Part shown: positions 2,351-41,410 of the stretch, in pieces
Numbering within the stretch: the first letter of the stretch is position 1
How the letters are laid out: the number at the start of each line of letters is the position of its first letter
The notes under the pieces: generated by a model
What the model was told of the DNA's origin: nothing
What the model saw: the letters and a program-made list of their open reading frames with translations, nothing else
The model's database searches: none
Program-made: the position numbers and the translations under genes
Source of the DNA: Alphaproteobacteria bacterium
GTDB taxonomy: Bacteria; Pseudomonadota; Alphaproteobacteria; UBA8366; Aestuariispiraceae
Length of the DNA: 64,000 nt
Assembly: GCA_030065235.1 (NCBI GenBank)
Contig: JASJDC010000005.1
Span: 62,001-126,000, forward strand
Direction of reading: 5' to 3'

Positions 2351-3444
2351 TCTCAGTCGTCGCCCCCGAAGATATTGTACGTTACTGCCGATCTCTTTTG
2401 GACTTGCAGGGTGAAGACCACGGTATCGATGACAACTTCTTGGCAGCCATGCTCAGACGCACTGCCGGGACCCATTGTCCATGTTCGCGTGCTGTACTTC
2501 GCGCTGCACTTGTGGAGAGTCTGGGTCATTTGGATGATGAGCCTTCTACGCTGCCCACGCGAATTGAAAGTCTTGTTGATGATCTGATCGTCGTTGGCGA
2601 TTTGCTAGAACTGACCGAGGTGACGACTGGAGAAGAAGAGGCAAAGGGGACATGGGTCTTTGCAGCACCGCCCTCTTTCGTTGAACGAAAGAGCGGCAGC
2701 ATCTTCCTGACCGGAATTGTTCCTGATCAAGATGTATGGCTGCCTGAAGACATCCGGAGCCGTATCGGCTTCTCGCGAGGCACGCGATCCATCAAGCCGG
2801 GGGACGGGGAGGACCTCGTCTCGCGGCTAGTGAGCGAAGGTCTCAGCAAACTATCCGAAACAACGTGGCTCAAAGCGCCGAAGACGCTCGCGCCAGATAA
2901 TGCGCTCGCCAAAGCAAGGCAGCGACTTGCCAAAGAGCAGCAATGCGGCCCAGTGCAAGGGCTTGAGATAATCGACCCAGAAACGAAACCGACCTACTAC
3001 AAAGGGCGATGGACTTCTCCCAAGGATCACTCCGGCCTATTTGTCGCGCGACGTCCACAGGAGTTCGGTGCCCCCCTCTGGTGTTTGGTTGAAATTCATT
3101 CCGGCATACTCAAGCGTATCCTTGACCTGCCTTTCCGGGGGTATCGTTGGCGCGGTTGCGATGCGGCATGGCATCTGCAAATGGCTATCGACAGTGAACG
3201 TGGAGTGCCGCAGCGATACAAAGTCGATCATCGTGACGATGGCACATGCCGGCTGAGCTTTTACTCCCCGATCCCGCTTTGGGCGGAACGCAGACTCATG
3301 ATTCTCGGCAAAAAATGCCAAGTTGAGAAAAGCCTATTTGCTTATGAAATTTCGGCTGATGAGGCCGTCCAAGAAGAGGAATTCTTGCGAGAGAACTTCT
3401 GGATTGTCCCAGTTGATACCGATTCTGAGGTGAGGATTGCCTGA
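2347..3444 (+). CDS. Unknown 365-aa protein, middle gene of helicase cluster
   Basis: The ATG overlaps the previous stop by four bases. The stop shares one base with the next ATG (TGATG at 3442-3446), so three consecutive genes are translationally coupled and probably made in fixed proportion. The N-terminal ~90 residues are helical and could be a winged-helix-like domain, with a Cys pair at H-C-P-C near residue 43. Residues 210-310 look like mixed alpha/beta. No enzyme motif is visible and I do not recognise the family. It probably works in complex with the helicase encoded next; that is inferred from coupling alone. Confidence 0.8.
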   Translation: MISVVAPEDIVRYCRSLLDLQGEDHGIDDNFLAAMLRRTAGTHCPCSRAVLRAALVESLGHLDDEPSTLPTRIESLVDDLIVVGDLLELTEVTTGEEEAKGTWVFAAPPSFVERKSGSIFLTGIVPDQDVWLPEDIRSRIGFSRGTRSIKPGDGEDLVSRLVSEGLSKLSETTWLKAPKTLAPDNALAKARQRLAKEQQCGPVQGLEIIDPETKPTYYKGRWTSPKDHSGLFVARRPQEFGAPLWCLVEIHSGILKRILDLPFRGYRWRGCDAAWHLQMAIDSERGVPQRYKVDHRDDGTCRLSFYSPIPLWAERRLMILGKKCQVEKSLFAYEISADEAVQEEEFLRENFWIVPVDTDSEVRIA

Positions 3445-6400
3445 TGCAAACAATCAAACAAACCATTGAGAATTTGCATGCTTCTCTCAAGGATTACATC
3501 GAGGCGACCTACCATATCAGCGCGCCCTCCCTTATTGCGCAGCGGCAATCGCTCTTGGACGAAGACGGCGTTATTCACCGCGTCCCTTTTCTTGAATCGA
3601 CACCGAAGTACCAATCGGGAGATACATTCTCGGCGATGTCCGGCCTGCCAAGCGCGGCATTAGAACTGTTGGAGTGCCTGAGTACGGCAGAGAAAGACCT
3701 GCCGCGCCTTGTGTATGACCCGCCCTACATGCACCAAGGCGATTCTCTGAAAAATTGCCTGATCAACGGCAAGAACCTCGTCATCATGACGGGAACGGGC
3801 TCAGGTAAGACGGAATCCTTCCTTCTGTCGATACTTGGTAAGGTTGCAAGAGAAGCTAAGGCGCATCCTAAGGTGTTCGCAAAACAAGCGGCCATGCGGG
3901 CGCTCATCATGTACCCGATGAACGCACTCGTGAATGACCAACTTGGCCGACTGAGGGTGATGCTGGGCGATCCGAGGTTGGTTCAGACCTTCAAGGATTG
4001 GTGCGGAAGGCCGCCGCGATTTGCCCGATACACAAGCCGGACGCCGTATGCGGGGGTTCGTACGGCGAAAAAGGATGGGCAGCGCCTCAGTTCCTTCGGT
4101 GACTTCTATGTCGACGTGCTTCAGAACGCCGCTAGCTCCGATCCTGAGAAAAGTAAGGAGGCAGGCGCACTTCTCACGGCACTGAGAGAAAGAGGAAAAT
4201 GGCCCGCCAAACCAGACCTGGAGGCTTGGTTCGGTCAAAAAGGTAGCCGATGGGAAAGCAAGGGTGCTTTTGTTCGGGCGGTCACTCTGCCGGACGACTC
4301 TGAGCTTCTGACGCGCCACGAAGTGCAGATTGCTCCGCCTGACCTGTTGGTCACGAACTACTCGATGCTCGAATACATGCTTATGCGGCCAATCGAGAGG
4401 CCGATCTTCGACAAAACCAAGGAGTGGCTTCAAAAGAACCCCGATGAGGCATTCTTGGTCGTTCTTGATGAAGCGCACCTCTATCGCGGTGCTGCAGGTG
4501 CCGAAGTTGGACTCTTGTTGAGAAGACTGCGGGACCGTCTTGGCATACCCGAAGAGCGACTTCAGGTCATTTGCGCGACTGCAAGCTTTGATGATCCGAC
4601 ATACGCTCTCGAATTTGGCGCACAACTCTCCGGCGTCCCTGCGAGCACTTTTGTTGCTGTTCAAGGAACACTCGATCTCAAATCAGATCATGATGCAGGG
4701 ACCGATGCTGATGCGGCTGCTCTCGCTGCTATTGACCTCCGGGCCTTCTATGAAGCCGAGACTGACGAAGCACGTCTGAAAAGTGTTGCATCGCTTCTCG
4801 CGTATCGTGGCGTCGAAACAGGAGAACGGACAGAAAAGGCTCTTTATGAAGCACTAAATAACTTTGGACCGATGGGACGGCTCATCAACGCAACCATGGA
4901 GGAGGCTATCCCGATAGCTGAACTTGGCGCGCTCGTCTTTCCGGAAGGCGTTTCGGCAGATGTCGCGGATCAGGCGGTCACTACCCTTATGGCGCTTGGT
5001 AGTGTCGCAAGACCATCTCCAGGGTTTCCAGGGCTATTGCCATGCCGGGTGCACAACTTCTTTCGTGGATTACCTGGTCTCTGGGTTTGTATGGACCCTG
5101 ATTGCACCGAACTCGCAAGAGAAGAGCGCGGCGGAATTTGCGGGAAGATGTACTCGCAGCCTATCGATACGTGCGACTGCGGGGCACGTGTCCTTGAACT
5201 ATTCACGTGCCGAAATTGCGGTACCGCGTATGGGCGGGCCTACACCGATGACATCGATGAGCCGCACGACCTTTGGTCAGAGCCAGGTGAGCAACTCCGG
5301 ATTGCAAGTGGAGAGAGCGCGCCGCTTGAGCCTATCGACCTGCTTTTAGAGGAACCCGCTCACGACGATGTCGCTGAACCAGCGGACTACGACCTTGAGA
5401 CCGGACAGCTTAACCCGAACACGATTGGGCCGCGTACAAGAACAGTCTATATCCGGCAAGGGCGATTGGCCGACACGTCAAATGATGACGATGACGGCGG
5501 CAGTACCCCGGAACCGCCCGGAAAGTTTGTTCCCTGTGCGGTTTGCGGTAAGACCGCGCGTTTCGGACGAAGCTATGTTCAGGATCACCAGACCAAGGGC
5601 GATCAGCCGTTTCAGGCGTTGCTGACCCGTCAAATCCAGATTCAGCCACCTGGTCCGCAAGAGCCCACTCGTTTCGCGCCGTTGCGTGGCCGCAAAGTGC
5701 TTGCATTCAGTGACTCTCGTCAAGTCGCGGCGCGGCTAGCGCCCAATATCCAAATGTACTCGGAACGAGACTCACTTCGGCCACTGATTATCAGCGGATT
5801 TAAGTGGCTACAGGACCAAGAAATATTGCGCCGACGTCTCGGACTTGATGACCTATTTCTTGGTGTGTTATTGGCATCGCAACGGCTTAATGTTCGACTT
5901 CGGCCCGAGTTGCATGGGCACGAAAACTTTGATGCAGAGGAAATCGTCGCGGCAGCAGTCAATGAAGGCAATCTAGACGATCCAGTCGCTCTTTTGGACC
6001 TACTCGACGATGTGCGTGCCAATAGTGCGCCTGAAGCGCTCTTGGGCAGTATGCTCACAACTCTTTCAGACCGCTTTTACGGGATGGAAGCACTCGCCCT
6101 GGCTTCACTTTGCGAGAAGGATCGTTATCAAAAAAAGATCATAGGTTTGCCGTCCATCCCCGGGATAGCGGAAACTGATGAGGCGAAGCTTGCTTTGGCG
6201 CGTTTTTGGCTGCGTTGCTGGAACGGTTTCAGCCTAGCAAAAATGCCAGGAACCTGGATCGACCGACCGGCTTCCGACGGTTACCGTGTCAGATCGCGAA
6301 AAGAGAAGGCCAAGATAGAAGCCGTCAATACCGCAATCGGCGACAAAGCCGCCCGGAAGCTATTCTGGGATCAATGGCATCCCGAACTTATCTCCACCTT

Positions 6401-8987
6401 CACGAAGTCAAAGGAAGGCGGGAACAGGTATCTCAACGGGAGCGAACTATCGCTACAATTTGAGGGCGACTGGGTACATTGCACGAGTTGCAAGTCGGTC
6501 CATAGGCCAATACCCGGACATGATCGTTGCCTGGACTGTGGTAACCTTTCCGTCAACGCACTTGATCCAGATAGCGATCCCGTTTTCCTCGCTCGGAAAG
6601 GATTTTACCGCAAACCTGTCACCGAGGCACTGCGAGAGCCGCCGCGACAGCCAATGGCGCTGATCGCGGCAGAGCATACAGCGCAGCTTAATGCGCCGCA
6701 TAACGAGGATGTGTTTTCGAAAGCAGAGGAACATGAACTGCGCTTTCAGGATATCGCGCTCGTGGGCAGCAGCCTCAGGTCTCGCTCCACAGCTATCGAT
6801 ATTCTCTCTAGTACAACGACGATGGAGGTTGGTATTGACCTTGGCGCTCTGACAGGCGTGGCGCTTAGGAATATGCCGCCTGGTCGTGCCAACTATCAGC
6901 AGCGTGCTGGACGAGCTGGTCGTCGTGGTAACGCCGTTGCGACGGTCTTGGCTTTCGGCAGCGCGGATAGTCACGACGAGCACTACTTTTCGCGGCCTGA
7001 TGAAATGATCCGCGGCAAAGTAATCGACCCGAAGCTGACGCTGGATAACCCGGAGATTGCTCGGCGGCATATCCGTGCCTATCTCCTGCAAGGCTACCAT
7101 CAGGATCGGTTGCCGATGGTTGACGCTAGCCAACCGCATGATCTTTTTTCTGTTCTTGGGAGCGTCTCGGCCTTCCGGATGCCGGAGTCGATGCTAAACC
7201 GCGATGATTTCGCGTTTTGGCTCGAGGAGAACGAAGAAGCGCTTCGCGTGCGGATTGCTTCTTGGCTGCCAACGGAACTCTCAGATGCAGATCGGACGAC
7301 ATTACTCGGAGAGTTTGTGGTGGACTGCCTGAAGGCTGTCGATGACGCGATCTCGTCGGACGTGTCAAACGATGAAGATGAAGATGGCGAAGACCATGCG
7401 GGAGATGAGGAAGCTCCGGAGGAAGGGGAAGAGCGTCCGCAACAGGCCTCGCAACCCAACAAACTTCTGGACCGCCTACTTTATTGTGGGAAGTTGCCCC
7501 GCTACGCATTCCCTACTGACGTCGCGACATTTCACGTCTTTGATCGTGACCGTTCCTCCCCCTTCCGCCACATCATGAAGTTTGCGCCATCACAGGGCCT
7601 GTCGATTGCATTGTCGCAGTATGCTCCGGGCAAGCAGGTCTGGATTGCTGGCAAGTGCTATACCTCAGGCGCGATCTATTCTGTGATGAAGAATGATCTC
7701 TTCGAAGCTTGGCAAGCTCGCAAGCTCTACATGCAATGCTCTGAGTGCGGATATGCAAGGACTTACGAGCAAGGAGAGGTCGTTCGCGGTGACACATCCG
7801 ACTGCGATGCATGCGGCGAACCCGGTAGCTTTGGACCCGCGCGCTATTGGCTTCGGCCACCAGGTTTCGCGCATCCCGTCTTTGAAGAGGAAGTTACCTC
7901 ACCTGATGAGATTCCGGAGACGAGTTATGCGACTCGCGCCAAGCTCACAATGGGGACGCCGGGCGATGCGGCGGGATGGGTGCATGCCAATGACCGGGTG
8001 CGCGGCTTGAGCACGCGAGAACACCTGATGGTGTCCAATACGGGCCCTGAGGATGAAGGCTATACCTATTGCACCAAGTGTGGGCGGATCGAATCCAGCA
8101 CGACACCGAACCCCAGTCTTGCTGGTCCGCACCGCAAGCCTTTTCCGACCAAGGATGACGATCTGACGTGCGATGGTCTCAGTCCGACACGCCATCTTTT
8201 CCTCGGCACAGACTTTATTACAGATATTGGTCTCTTTTCGATGCGTGTGGAGAAACCCATTGAACTTCGGCCAGCGCATGACTCTACTAAAGTGGCACTT
8301 CGGACGGTCAGTGAGGCGCTCGCAAAGGCTGCCTGTCAGTTGCTTGAGATTGAGCCTGGCGAGTTAATGGCTGAATTTCGACCTGCACTGACCACCAAGG
8401 GGAAGTCCGGAAAAGAAGTTGAGATTTTTCTTTACGATACGCTGCCGGGCGGCGCTGGCTTCGCAAGCCAGATGGCGGAGCGTGGGCTTGAACTGTTCCA
8501 GAAGGCGCTGTCCATTCTCAAGGACTGCCCTGAGAATTGCGATGGCTCATGCTACCGATGCCTCCGCAGCTTTAAGAACAGGCTCGAACACAGGCTTCTA
8601 GACCGTCATGTCGGCGTCGAGCTTCTTGAGTATCTCTTGTCAGGACAACAGCCTGGCTTCAACCCTCATAGGCTGAATGCGTCTACTGCACTCTTGCTGA
8701 ATGATCTCAGAAGACGCTGCGATGACACCATCTCCTTCGAGGCTGGAGCAACTGTCGACTACGGCGGGGGCAAGAGCATCGAGGTTCCTATCCTGGCTCA
8801 GTCGGCAGGAAAATCATTTATTATCGCCTTGTCAGGACCTCTGACGAGCGGTCACCCAGCTGACGCTAACCTTGCGGACCTCAGAGATAACAGCGCGGAA
8901 TATCGCGTCATCGTAGTGAACGAGCTTGAAGTGCGCGGCAATCTTCCTTGGGTCAGCCGCCAAGTACTACAGCAGATTAGATCGTGA
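3444..8987 (+). CDS. Giant DEAH-box helicase with C-terminal DUF1998/MZB zinc site
   Basis: Superfamily 2 helicase of 1847 aa. Motif I is TGTGSGKT (residues 116-123), motif II is DEAH (342-345), and an ATAS motif III follows. Motifs V/VI include TTTMEVGIDLG and QQRAGRAGRRG (about 1152-1162). The C-terminus carries the DUF1998 signature DTLPGGAG and four cysteines (C1695, C1699, C1703, C1706) in CPENCDGSCYRC. Several further Cys pairs lie between and after the helicase lobes (near residues 545-595, 700, 1015-1035, 1430-1460 and 1540), which suggests zinc ribbons. Helicases of this architecture power the defence systems DISARM (DrmA) and Druantia (DruE), and DUF1998 is shared with MrfA-type helicases. 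The size is closer to DruE. An acidic low-complexity linker lies near residues 1310-1340. It likely translocates on DNA; the target is unknown. Confidence 0.92.
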   Translation: MQTIKQTIENLHASLKDYIEATYHISAPSLIAQRQSLLDEDGVIHRVPFLESTPKYQSGDTFSAMSGLPSAALELLECLSTAEKDLPRLVYDPPYMHQGDSLKNCLINGKNLVIMTGTGSGKTESFLLSILGKVAREAKAHPKVFAKQAAMRALIMYPMNALVNDQLGRLRVMLGDPRLVQTFKDWCGRPPRFARYTSRTPYAGVRTAKKDGQRLSSFGDFYVDVLQNAASSDPEKSKEAGALLTALRERGKWPAKPDLEAWFGQKGSRWESKGAFVRAVTLPDDSELLTRHEVQIAPPDLLVTNYSMLEYMLMRPIERPIFDKTKEWLQKNPDEAFLVVLDEAHLYRGAAGAEVGLLLRRLRDRLGIPEERLQVICATASFDDPTYALEFGAQLSGVPASTFVAVQGTLDLKSDHDAGTDADAAALAAIDLRAFYEAETDEARLKSVASLLAYRGVETGERTEKALYEALNNFGPMGRLINATMEEAIPIAELGALVFPEGVSADVADQAVTTLMALGSVARPSPGFPGLLPCRVHNFFRGLPGLWVCMDPDCTELAREERGGICGKMYSQPIDTCDCGARVLELFTCRNCGTAYGRAYTDDIDEPHDLWSEPGEQLRIASGESAPLEPIDLLLEEPAHDDVAEPADYDLETGQLNPNTIGPRTRTVYIRQGRLADTSNDDDDGGSTPEPPGKFVPCAVCGKTARFGRSYVQDHQTKGDQPFQALLTRQIQIQPPGPQEPTRFAPLRGRKVLAFSDSRQVAARLAPNIQMYSERDSLRPLIISGFKWLQDQEILRRRLGLDDLFLGVLLASQRLNVRLRPELHGHENFDAEEIVAAAVNEGNLDDPVALLDLLDDVRANSAPEALLGSMLTTLSDRFYGMEALALASLCEKDRYQKKIIGLPSIPGIAETDEAKLALARFWLRCWNGFSLAKMPGTWIDRPASDGYRVRSRKEKAKIEAVNTAIGDKAARKLFWDQWHPELISTFTKSKEGGNRYLNGSELSLQFEGDWVHCTSCKSVHRPIPGHDRCLDCGNLSVNALDPDSDPVFLARKGFYRKPVTEALREPPRQPMALIAAEHTAQLNAPHNEDVFSKAEEHELRFQDIALVGSSLRSRSTAIDILSSTTTMEVGIDLGALTGVALRNMPPGRANYQQRAGRAGRRGNAVATVLAFGSADSHDEHYFSRPDEMIRGKVIDPKLTLDNPEIARRHIRAYLLQGYHQDRLPMVDASQPHDLFSVLGSVSAFRMPESMLNRDDFAFWLEENEEALRVRIASWLPTELSDADRTTLLGEFVVDCLKAVDDAISSDVSNDEDEDGEDHAGDEEAPEEGEERPQQASQPNKLLDRLLYCGKLPRYAFPTDVATFHVFDRDRSSPFRHIMKFAPSQGLSIALSQYAPGKQVWIAGKCYTSGAIYSVMKNDLFEAWQARKLYMQCSECGYARTYEQGEVVRGDTSDCDACGEPGSFGPARYWLRPPGFAHPVFEEEVTSPDEIPETSYATRAKLTMGTPGDAAGWVHANDRVRGLSTREHLMVSNTGPEDEGYTYCTKCGRIESSTTPNPSLAGPHRKPFPTKDDDLTCDGLSPTRHLFLGTDFITDIGLFSMRVEKPIELRPAHDSTKVALRTVSEALAKAACQLLEIEPGELMAEFRPALTTKGKSGKEVEIFLYDTLPGGAGFASQMAERGLELFQKALSILKDCPENCDGSCYRCLRSFKNRLEHRLLDRHVGVELLEYLLSGQQPGFNPHRLNASTALLLNDLRRRCDDTISFEAGATVDYGGGKSIEVPILAQSAGKSFIIALSGPLTSGHPADANLADLRDNSAEYRVIVVNELEVRGNLPWVSRQVLQQIRS

Positions 8988-38990: not shown

Positions 38991-41164
<2,174 letters not shown>

Positions 41165-41224: not shown

Positions 41225-41259
41225 GCTTTGCCTCGCGCAAAGCATGGCCGTCGCCGGCC
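41225..41259 (-). promoter_or_regulatory. Attenuator hairpins upstream of leuA
   Basis: On the minus strand, GGCCG-GCGA-CGGCC (41246-41259) is followed by GCTTTGC-GCGAG-GCAAAGC (41225-41243) and a pyrimidine-rich run (CCTTCTTCTTCC). The second hairpin would be the terminator of a leucine attenuator. A third hairpin (AGCAGGC-TC-GCCTGCT) lies within the leader-peptide codons and could compete with it. Confidence 0.6.
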
Positions 41260-41268
41260 CCCGACGAT

Positions 41269-41343
41269 TTATGCCGCCGGGCCGGTAAGTCGTAGGATAA
41301 GGAGCAGGCGAGCCTGCTGCGCTTTCGACAGTTTCATCGACAT
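41269..41343 (-). CDS. Leucine-rich leader peptide of leuA
   Basis: 24 codons from the ATG at 41343 to TAA at 41269. An in-frame ATG two codons later is an alternative start. The peptide contains RLLLILRL, that is, five Leu codons within eight (CTG, CTC, CTT, CTA, CTT), just before the stop. Stalling at these codons when charged Leu-tRNA is scarce would shift the downstream hairpins (41225-41259) and let transcription continue into leuA. No strong ribosome-binding site is seen. Leucine leader peptides before leuA are known in alphaproteobacteria. Confidence 0.75.
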   Translation of the reverse strand: MSMKLSKAQQARLLLILRLTGPAA

Positions 41344-41410
41344 AACAAGAACGTAGTCGCCGCACATGCTGCGGTCAACCCGCCGGACGCGCAGCCATTG
41401 ACCGGCGCCG

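Follow-up and report, generated by a model that had tools for sequence, protein, structure and literature searches.

How an alphaproteobacterial leuA gene might be adjusted to the supply of leucine is the question raised by a stretch of 64,000 nucleotides (the window) from a genome assembly of 4.18 Mb. In the leuLABCD attenuator of E. coli, leuA is preceded by the frame of a short peptide that has several Leu codons in a row, and its translation senses Leu-tRNA. The original prediction proposed classic attenuation of this kind for the window, starting from a 24-codon leucine-rich frame upstream of leuA. Such a frame is indeed present on the minus strand, a strand that the prediction had left unstated, together with promoter-like boxes and a conserved codon core:

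39398-41092, minus strand: leuA, encoding 2-isopropylmalate synthase of the long 'yeast' type (TIGR00970, leuA_yeast, 840.5 bits at a cut-off of 697.4)
41103-41099, minus strand: AGGAG before leuA (sequence)
41269-41343, minus strand: leader ORF1, MSMKLSKAQQARLLLILRLTGPAA followed by the stop codon, 24 codons with six Leu (sequence, relatives)
41286-41292, minus strand: core CGACTTA, comprising Arg CGA, the last Leu codon CTT and the first base of the following codon (alignment A3)
41350-41355, minus strand: -10-like box TACGTT (sequence)
41373-41378, minus strand: -35-like box TTGACC, 35 nt 5' of the ORF1 ATG (sequence; spacing kept in leuA loci)

ORF1 starts with ATG at 41343, ends with TAA at 41269 and is separated from the leuA start (41092) by 176 nt. 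An extra in-frame ATG at 41146-41144 (minus strand) lies 18 codons 5' of the likely leuA start and would extend the gene to an ORF of 39398-41146. Among named genomes, the LeuA protein best matches that of an Enhydrobacter MAG (66%), followed by Pseudonocardia and, in third place, an alphaproteobacterial MAG (63%). The Leu codons of ORF1 include CTA, which had been called rare; it is uncommon in the window, making up 5.3% of the Leu codons (79 of 1477) across 28 long ORFs, but TTA is rarer still (18). The position of the -10-like TACGTT predicts a transcript start at or beside the ORF1 ATG, so that the leuA transcript would be leaderless, with hardly any 5' leader. A generic sigma-70 scan of the leader region found no site.

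When the 729 small ATG ORFs of the window were filtered for at least three Leu in a stretch of 7 or 8 codons, with TTG[AC][CT] 33-39 nt upstream, this combination occurred at two places only. The second place, at 4690 on the plus strand, was rejected as a Leu leader because it sits inside the DruE helicase gene. That gene (3444-8987, plus strand) encodes a helicase of 1847 aa and is a Druantia defence gene (PADLOC DruE1, 2063 bits).

Conservation of the leader peptide, on which the original prediction had made itself dependent, was assessed in the upstream regions of long-type leuA genes from the order and class. This set of 140 loci comprised 30 picked by LeuA similarity, 30 picked by model R1, which favours the second leader ORF described below, and 80 further loci; long LeuA was present in 115 genomes of the class, with G349, G188, G073 and G274 left out. 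Five loci with an unaligned LeuA N-terminus (L159, L179, L184, L191 and L219) were excluded, and five more were repeats of one gene. A Leu-rich ORF with TTG[AC][CT] 33-39 nt before its ATG (8-45 codons, at least three Leu in 8 codons) precedes leuA in 106 of the 130 distinct loci. With repeats included, 111 of 135 loci passed this filter, compared to 2.05 (0-6) in 20 dinucleotide shuffles and two on the opposite strand. The exact motif TTGAC stood 35-39 nt before the ATG in 68 of 126 Leu-rich small ORFs, in contrast to 1 of 247 Leu-poor ones (overlapping ORFs counted separately). These contrasts suggest selection on both the Leu codons and their constant distance from the promoter-like motif. 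Among the 24 of 130 loci that failed the filter, L106 has the core and a hairpin-like sequence. The last Leu codon is CTT in 70 of 104 leaders, and the codon preceding it is CGA in 49 of 104.

Downstream of and within these codons, the RNA offers four hairpins:

41303-41318, minus strand: in-codon hairpin AGCAGGC tc GCCTGCT, part of which can also pair weakly with hairpin D (sequence, folding)
41260-41281, minus strand: stop-codon hairpin H, CCCGGCGG cauaaa UCGUCGGG, with the TAA in its loop (folding, covariation, model R2)
41246-41259, minus strand: second hairpin GGCCG gcga CGGCC (folding)
41225-41243, minus strand: terminator-like hairpin D, GCTTTGC/GCAAAGC, with the tail CCTTCTTCTT at 41224-41215 (terminator scan, folding)

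The hairpin inside the frame (41318-41303) and the two downstream ones (41259-41246 and 41243-41225) had all been described correctly. The conserved RNA part is the hairpin missing from that description, namely the stop-codon hairpin. In 93 distinct leaders (up to 27 aa, duplicates removed), at least five pairs span the stop codon in 69 (mean z -1.79), and a strong hairpin of at least six pairs surrounds it in 62; in 52 of these 62, CCCG follows exactly 5 nt past the last Leu codon. The remaining 31 leaders have no stop hairpin that counts as strong with this descriptor and include most of the window's own family (e.g. L085-L092), of which L083 and L084 retain it. Because the RNA hairpin spans the stop codon, many of the peptides end in ..GPAS or ..GPAL.

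Covariation was evaluated in alignment A3 (32 leaders), which, like A1 (also 32 rows), was chosen for having the structure and hence tests pairing, not prevalence. Of all cells, 92.1% pair. Double-changed cells numbered 25, compared to 7.4 in shuffled alignments, and the covariation score was 0.319 compared to 0.146, values reached by 0 of 500 shuffles in either case. Further pair types were likewise enriched (13 versus 8.8; 1 of 500 shuffles), while pairs double-changed at least once were not unusually many (4 versus 3.3; 198 of 500). Every slid register scored worse than the actual one. Model R2 recognises H in the window with 38.5 bits as the sole significant match in that genome, and finds matches in 44 of 192 genomes of the class at E 0.05. 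In 27 of 30 R2 loci examined (window included), leuA adjoins the match.

The three exceptions all carry an Ile codon at the sensing position: L249 precedes ileS, L256 an IleS-like ORF (by eye) and L254 a small gene. A single base separates the Leu core CGACTTA from the Ile core CGAATTA. Upstream of ileS, the Ile core was found in 15 of 52 loci and the Leu core in none (52 usable of 53 genomes taken from 57 with a match); upstream of leuA, the Leu core was found in 45 of 130 loci and the Ile core in one. A search with the Ile pattern yielded 53 places among the matches listed (two of which overlap) in 43 of 192 genomes, compared to one for the reversed pattern. From 30 of these loci that were examined, 12 lie before ileS, 15 before a small gene roughly 100 codons long (one of these assignments being weak, E 1e-5, with queries derived from R2 matches) and two before nothing recognised, while one has ilvA about 0.8 kb downstream. 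At least 23 of the 30 have an ATG with TTG[AC] 33-39 nt upstream. Over all searches, the Ile-codon leaders noted are:

L249, L256, L259, L264, L330-L359, and L279 in the window's own genome: Ile-codon leaders before ileS, ilvA or the small gene

In the window's own genome, the Ile core stands before ileS (CGAATTATCGGCCCGGC...GCCGGG) with the stop codon past the hairpin, and the leader ORF there fails the leaderless filter. Among the R2 matches lacking a locus, 20 of the 23 listed were examined. Of these weaker matches, seven precede ileS by sequence (four of them checked with PF00133), and another stands before a fragment of threonine ammonia-lyase (PF00291; the top match, NF005600, stays below its cut-off). 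Most of the others precede the small gene, with L267, L268, L269 and L272 before nothing recognised. A Val-pattern search gave two places in 192 genomes, both before the small gene, compared to three for the reversed control, and thus no support for a Val class.

The small gene (about 85-125 codons; L260, L261, L274, L276, L278) matched no Pfam family above cut-off; at E<=10, ACT_5 appeared in one of five proteins (E 0.013). Calling it 'ACT-like' is a guess, and it is perhaps an isoleucine-related regulator. In L337 and L338, the Ile leader precedes an ORF that matches none of eight query proteins.

The strongest indication that the sensor is a ribosome reading these codons comes from the way the sensing codon tracks the downstream gene, and this sensor part of a model built on ORF1 and H is well supported. 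The whole model, in which leuA is controlled by whether H is folded or masked by a ribosome on the leader peptide, we rate a little above even. It would work as follows. ORF1 would be translated as a leader peptide from the extreme 5' end of the leuA transcript. With ample charged tRNA-Leu, the ribosome would pass the Leu codons, stop and leave, and H would fold. When tRNA-Leu is scarce, the ribosome would pause once the final Leu codon (CTT, preceded by CGA) has entered its A site, and the 5' arm of H, which starts 5 nt further on, would be covered, so that H stays unfolded and leuA stays on. Folded H would lower leuA output through Rho-dependent termination, through hairpin D or through RNA stability as alternative routes.

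In a crude footprint model of the ribosome, H formed with a probability of 0.82-0.89 when Leu codon 13, 14, 15 or 17 occupied the A site, and of 0.00 when codon 18, codon 19 or the stop codon did. Since H is predicted to form with a ribosome at codons 13-17, the direction of control would depend on the stalling site.

Of the alternatives, attenuation through Rho comes closest to this model. ORF1 translation and H would then decide whether Rho acts on C-rich RNA downstream, and as this is a special form of masking of H, the probabilities of the two overlap; taken by itself, we regard it as possible but somewhat unlikely. In 80 of 95 loci, the RNA following ORF1 has more C than G, a composition that would fit Rho, with a mean skew of 0.112 compared to 0.021 upstream of the promoter, and the best C-minus-G excess in 60 nt is 0.208 compared to 0.147. 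This skew is modest overall, however, and 0.0 in the window itself.

Classic attenuation, the mechanism named in the original prediction, holds D to be an intrinsic terminator and lets stalling favour an antiterminator formed by the 5' arm of D and early ORF1 codons around GCGCAGCAGGC. The leader peptide, whose conservation before leuA the prediction had named as a check able to refute it and which is conserved, and its Leu codons at the stall position agree with this proposal, which is partly supported; as a whole, we consider classic attenuation unlikely. The stem of D measures 7 bp and is followed by a U-rich tail, and D is one of two terminator-like sites within 501 nt on both strands (expected 0.3, sd 0.7). 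In the ribosome model, its probability drops to 0.44 with the A site at Ile codon 16 and to 0.37 at Leu codon 17, where early ORF1 codons compete for its 5' arm, an effect that classic attenuation could exploit. For all remaining ribosome positions, however, the model gives D 0.76-0.99, including 0.88-0.99 at Leu codons 5, 13, 14, 15 and 19 and 0.98 at the last Leu codon, and the weak competing pairing mostly disappears once 25 further nucleotides are transcribed (D back to 0.86). Across relatives, U-tracted terminators after ORF1 occur in 24 of 111 loci, which modestly exceeds all ten mononucleotide shuffles (8-20) but leaves 87 loci without one; such terminators do not look like a conserved feature. 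The D-like hairpins of L083 and L084 have no U-run. Nor was a conserved antiterminator found in a partner test of 61 leaders, in which the 3' arm of masked H had no preferred partner downstream (0.55 versus 0.61 shuffled), leaving the pairing of the 5' arm of D with early ORF1 codons as the sole candidate. As a whole, the leader shows no unusual stability (156 nt, z -1.06; 252 nt, z -2.36).

Control of leuA translation or RNA stability, exerted by folded H or by a pseudoknot found in relatives and already considered for the LEU element of Actinobacteria, appears improbable for the window. This reading draws on a second Leu ORF (ORF2) that many relatives carry in tandem with ORF1 (e.g. L099:1365-1439, plus strand). 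Its core lies 103-204 nt before the LeuA match, it often ends in ..LRLxGGRRA, and its RNA combines a 10-bp helix with a pseudoknot emanating from the loop of that helix. In the ORF2 alignment, 89.9% of cells are paired and 8 of 15 pairs are double-changed, with a covariation score reached by 0 of 500 shuffles; for the pseudoknot helix alone, 76.8% of cells are paired and three of five pairs show double changes. Model R1, built on ORF2, was found with strict filters in 33 of 386 genomes of the class, and leuA adjoins all 30 loci examined. An ORF2 pseudoknot in the window was rejected, as the R1 search of its genome returned no significant match (best E 0.84; 15.7 bits and E 0.15 on L082). A further point against this kind of control is the distance of about 170 nt from H down to the leuA start. 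Weak matches in the window's own genome (L112-L115, L227-L229) have no LeuA nearby. As the family members L083 and L084 have an ORF2 element, it was probably lost in the window.

In locus L002, by eye, the Leu run GCTTCGACTT is fully complementary (10 bp) to AAGTCGAAGC directly 5' of the leuA start, which makes translational control possible at that locus.

That ORF1 is untranslated and its hairpin a protein-binding or processing site is highly improbable: the RNA hairpin, and not a function of the protein, may account for the peptide C-terminus, but relatives keep the start codon, the frame, the Leu codons and the spacing to the promoter, and the codons vary with the target gene.

Masking of H by the leader ribosome is our preferred reading for the window. 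As relatives have this layout with Ile codons before isoleucine genes, the leuA leader looks more like a reprogrammable amino-acid sensor than a simple textbook leucine switch. A wider reading, to which we assign just under even chances as a whole, makes the window one member of a widespread, hitherto nameless family of leaderless attenuators in Alphaproteobacteria. The family would share a single module, CGA-[sensing codon]-A followed by a CCCGG hairpin that contains the stop codon or lies close to it. Within this module, a single base (CTT or ATT) would set leucine or isoleucine sensing together with the attached gene. Control would operate through direct ribosome masking of one hairpin, with no antiterminator, and in many genomes the module would stand in tandem with a pseudoknot element that Actinobacteria have as well. 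If true, the genes for branched-chain amino acids in Alphaproteobacteria, ileS among them, have a common amino-acid sensor that can be reprogrammed and in which natural one-base swaps already reveal the codon that is read, and isoleucine control is predicted for the small gene behind Ile leaders. It also points to an equivalent of the actinobacterial LEU element in a second phylum, open to comparison and testing.

Rfam contains no leucine leader matching the window, where only a tRNA elsewhere is recognised, and in 11 leuA loci searched at E<=1 no family other than tRNA attained its gathering score. Among the publications listed from an open-licence library, none was seen to describe an alphaproteobacterial leuA or ileS leader of this kind. 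Vitreschak 2004 (FEMS Microbiol Lett 234:357), the reference given in the available text of PMC1273637 for an ilvB leader peptide, one of several alphaproteobacterial elements there, may contain related leaders, so that priority is uncertain.

Compared to known systems, the window shares with E. coli leuLABCD a short Leu-run peptide before leuA, the translation of which would sense Leu-tRNA. In contrast to leuLABCD, the terminator is not conserved here and the antiterminator candidate is weak, the spacing is that of a leaderless transcript and the stop codon lies within a covarying hairpin. Sinorhizobium meliloti trpL, as described in the accessible portions of PMC7298713 and PMC10117765, is likewise an alphaproteobacterial leader peptide on an mRNA starting at ATG, a start that is predicted for leuA here; unlike ORF1, trpL has Trp codons and belongs to trpE. 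In the Caulobacter ilvBN leader, a paused ribosome is said to block formation of the terminator hairpin (PMC4117421, excerpted text), and prevention of a hairpin by a paused ribosome is likewise what is proposed for the window. The same excerpt describes ilvBN with a rho-independent terminator and with Ile and Val codons, unlike the window. For the LEU element of actinobacterial leuA (Seliverstov 2005), Leu codons were proposed to pair with a Shine-Dalgarno box, and in the text available from PMC1262725 its describers left the mechanism open. It resembles the window in the Leu codon run before leuA and differs from it in that the window has ORF1 only and no pseudoknot, and in that the available description places the element in Actinobacteria. 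The closer likeness is to ORF2 of the relatives: in L009 from Mycobacterium, the only LEU element locus compared, and compared by eye, the parts follow the same order, namely Leu codons, a helix with the stop codon in its loop, and a pseudoknot from that loop to the downstream RNA.
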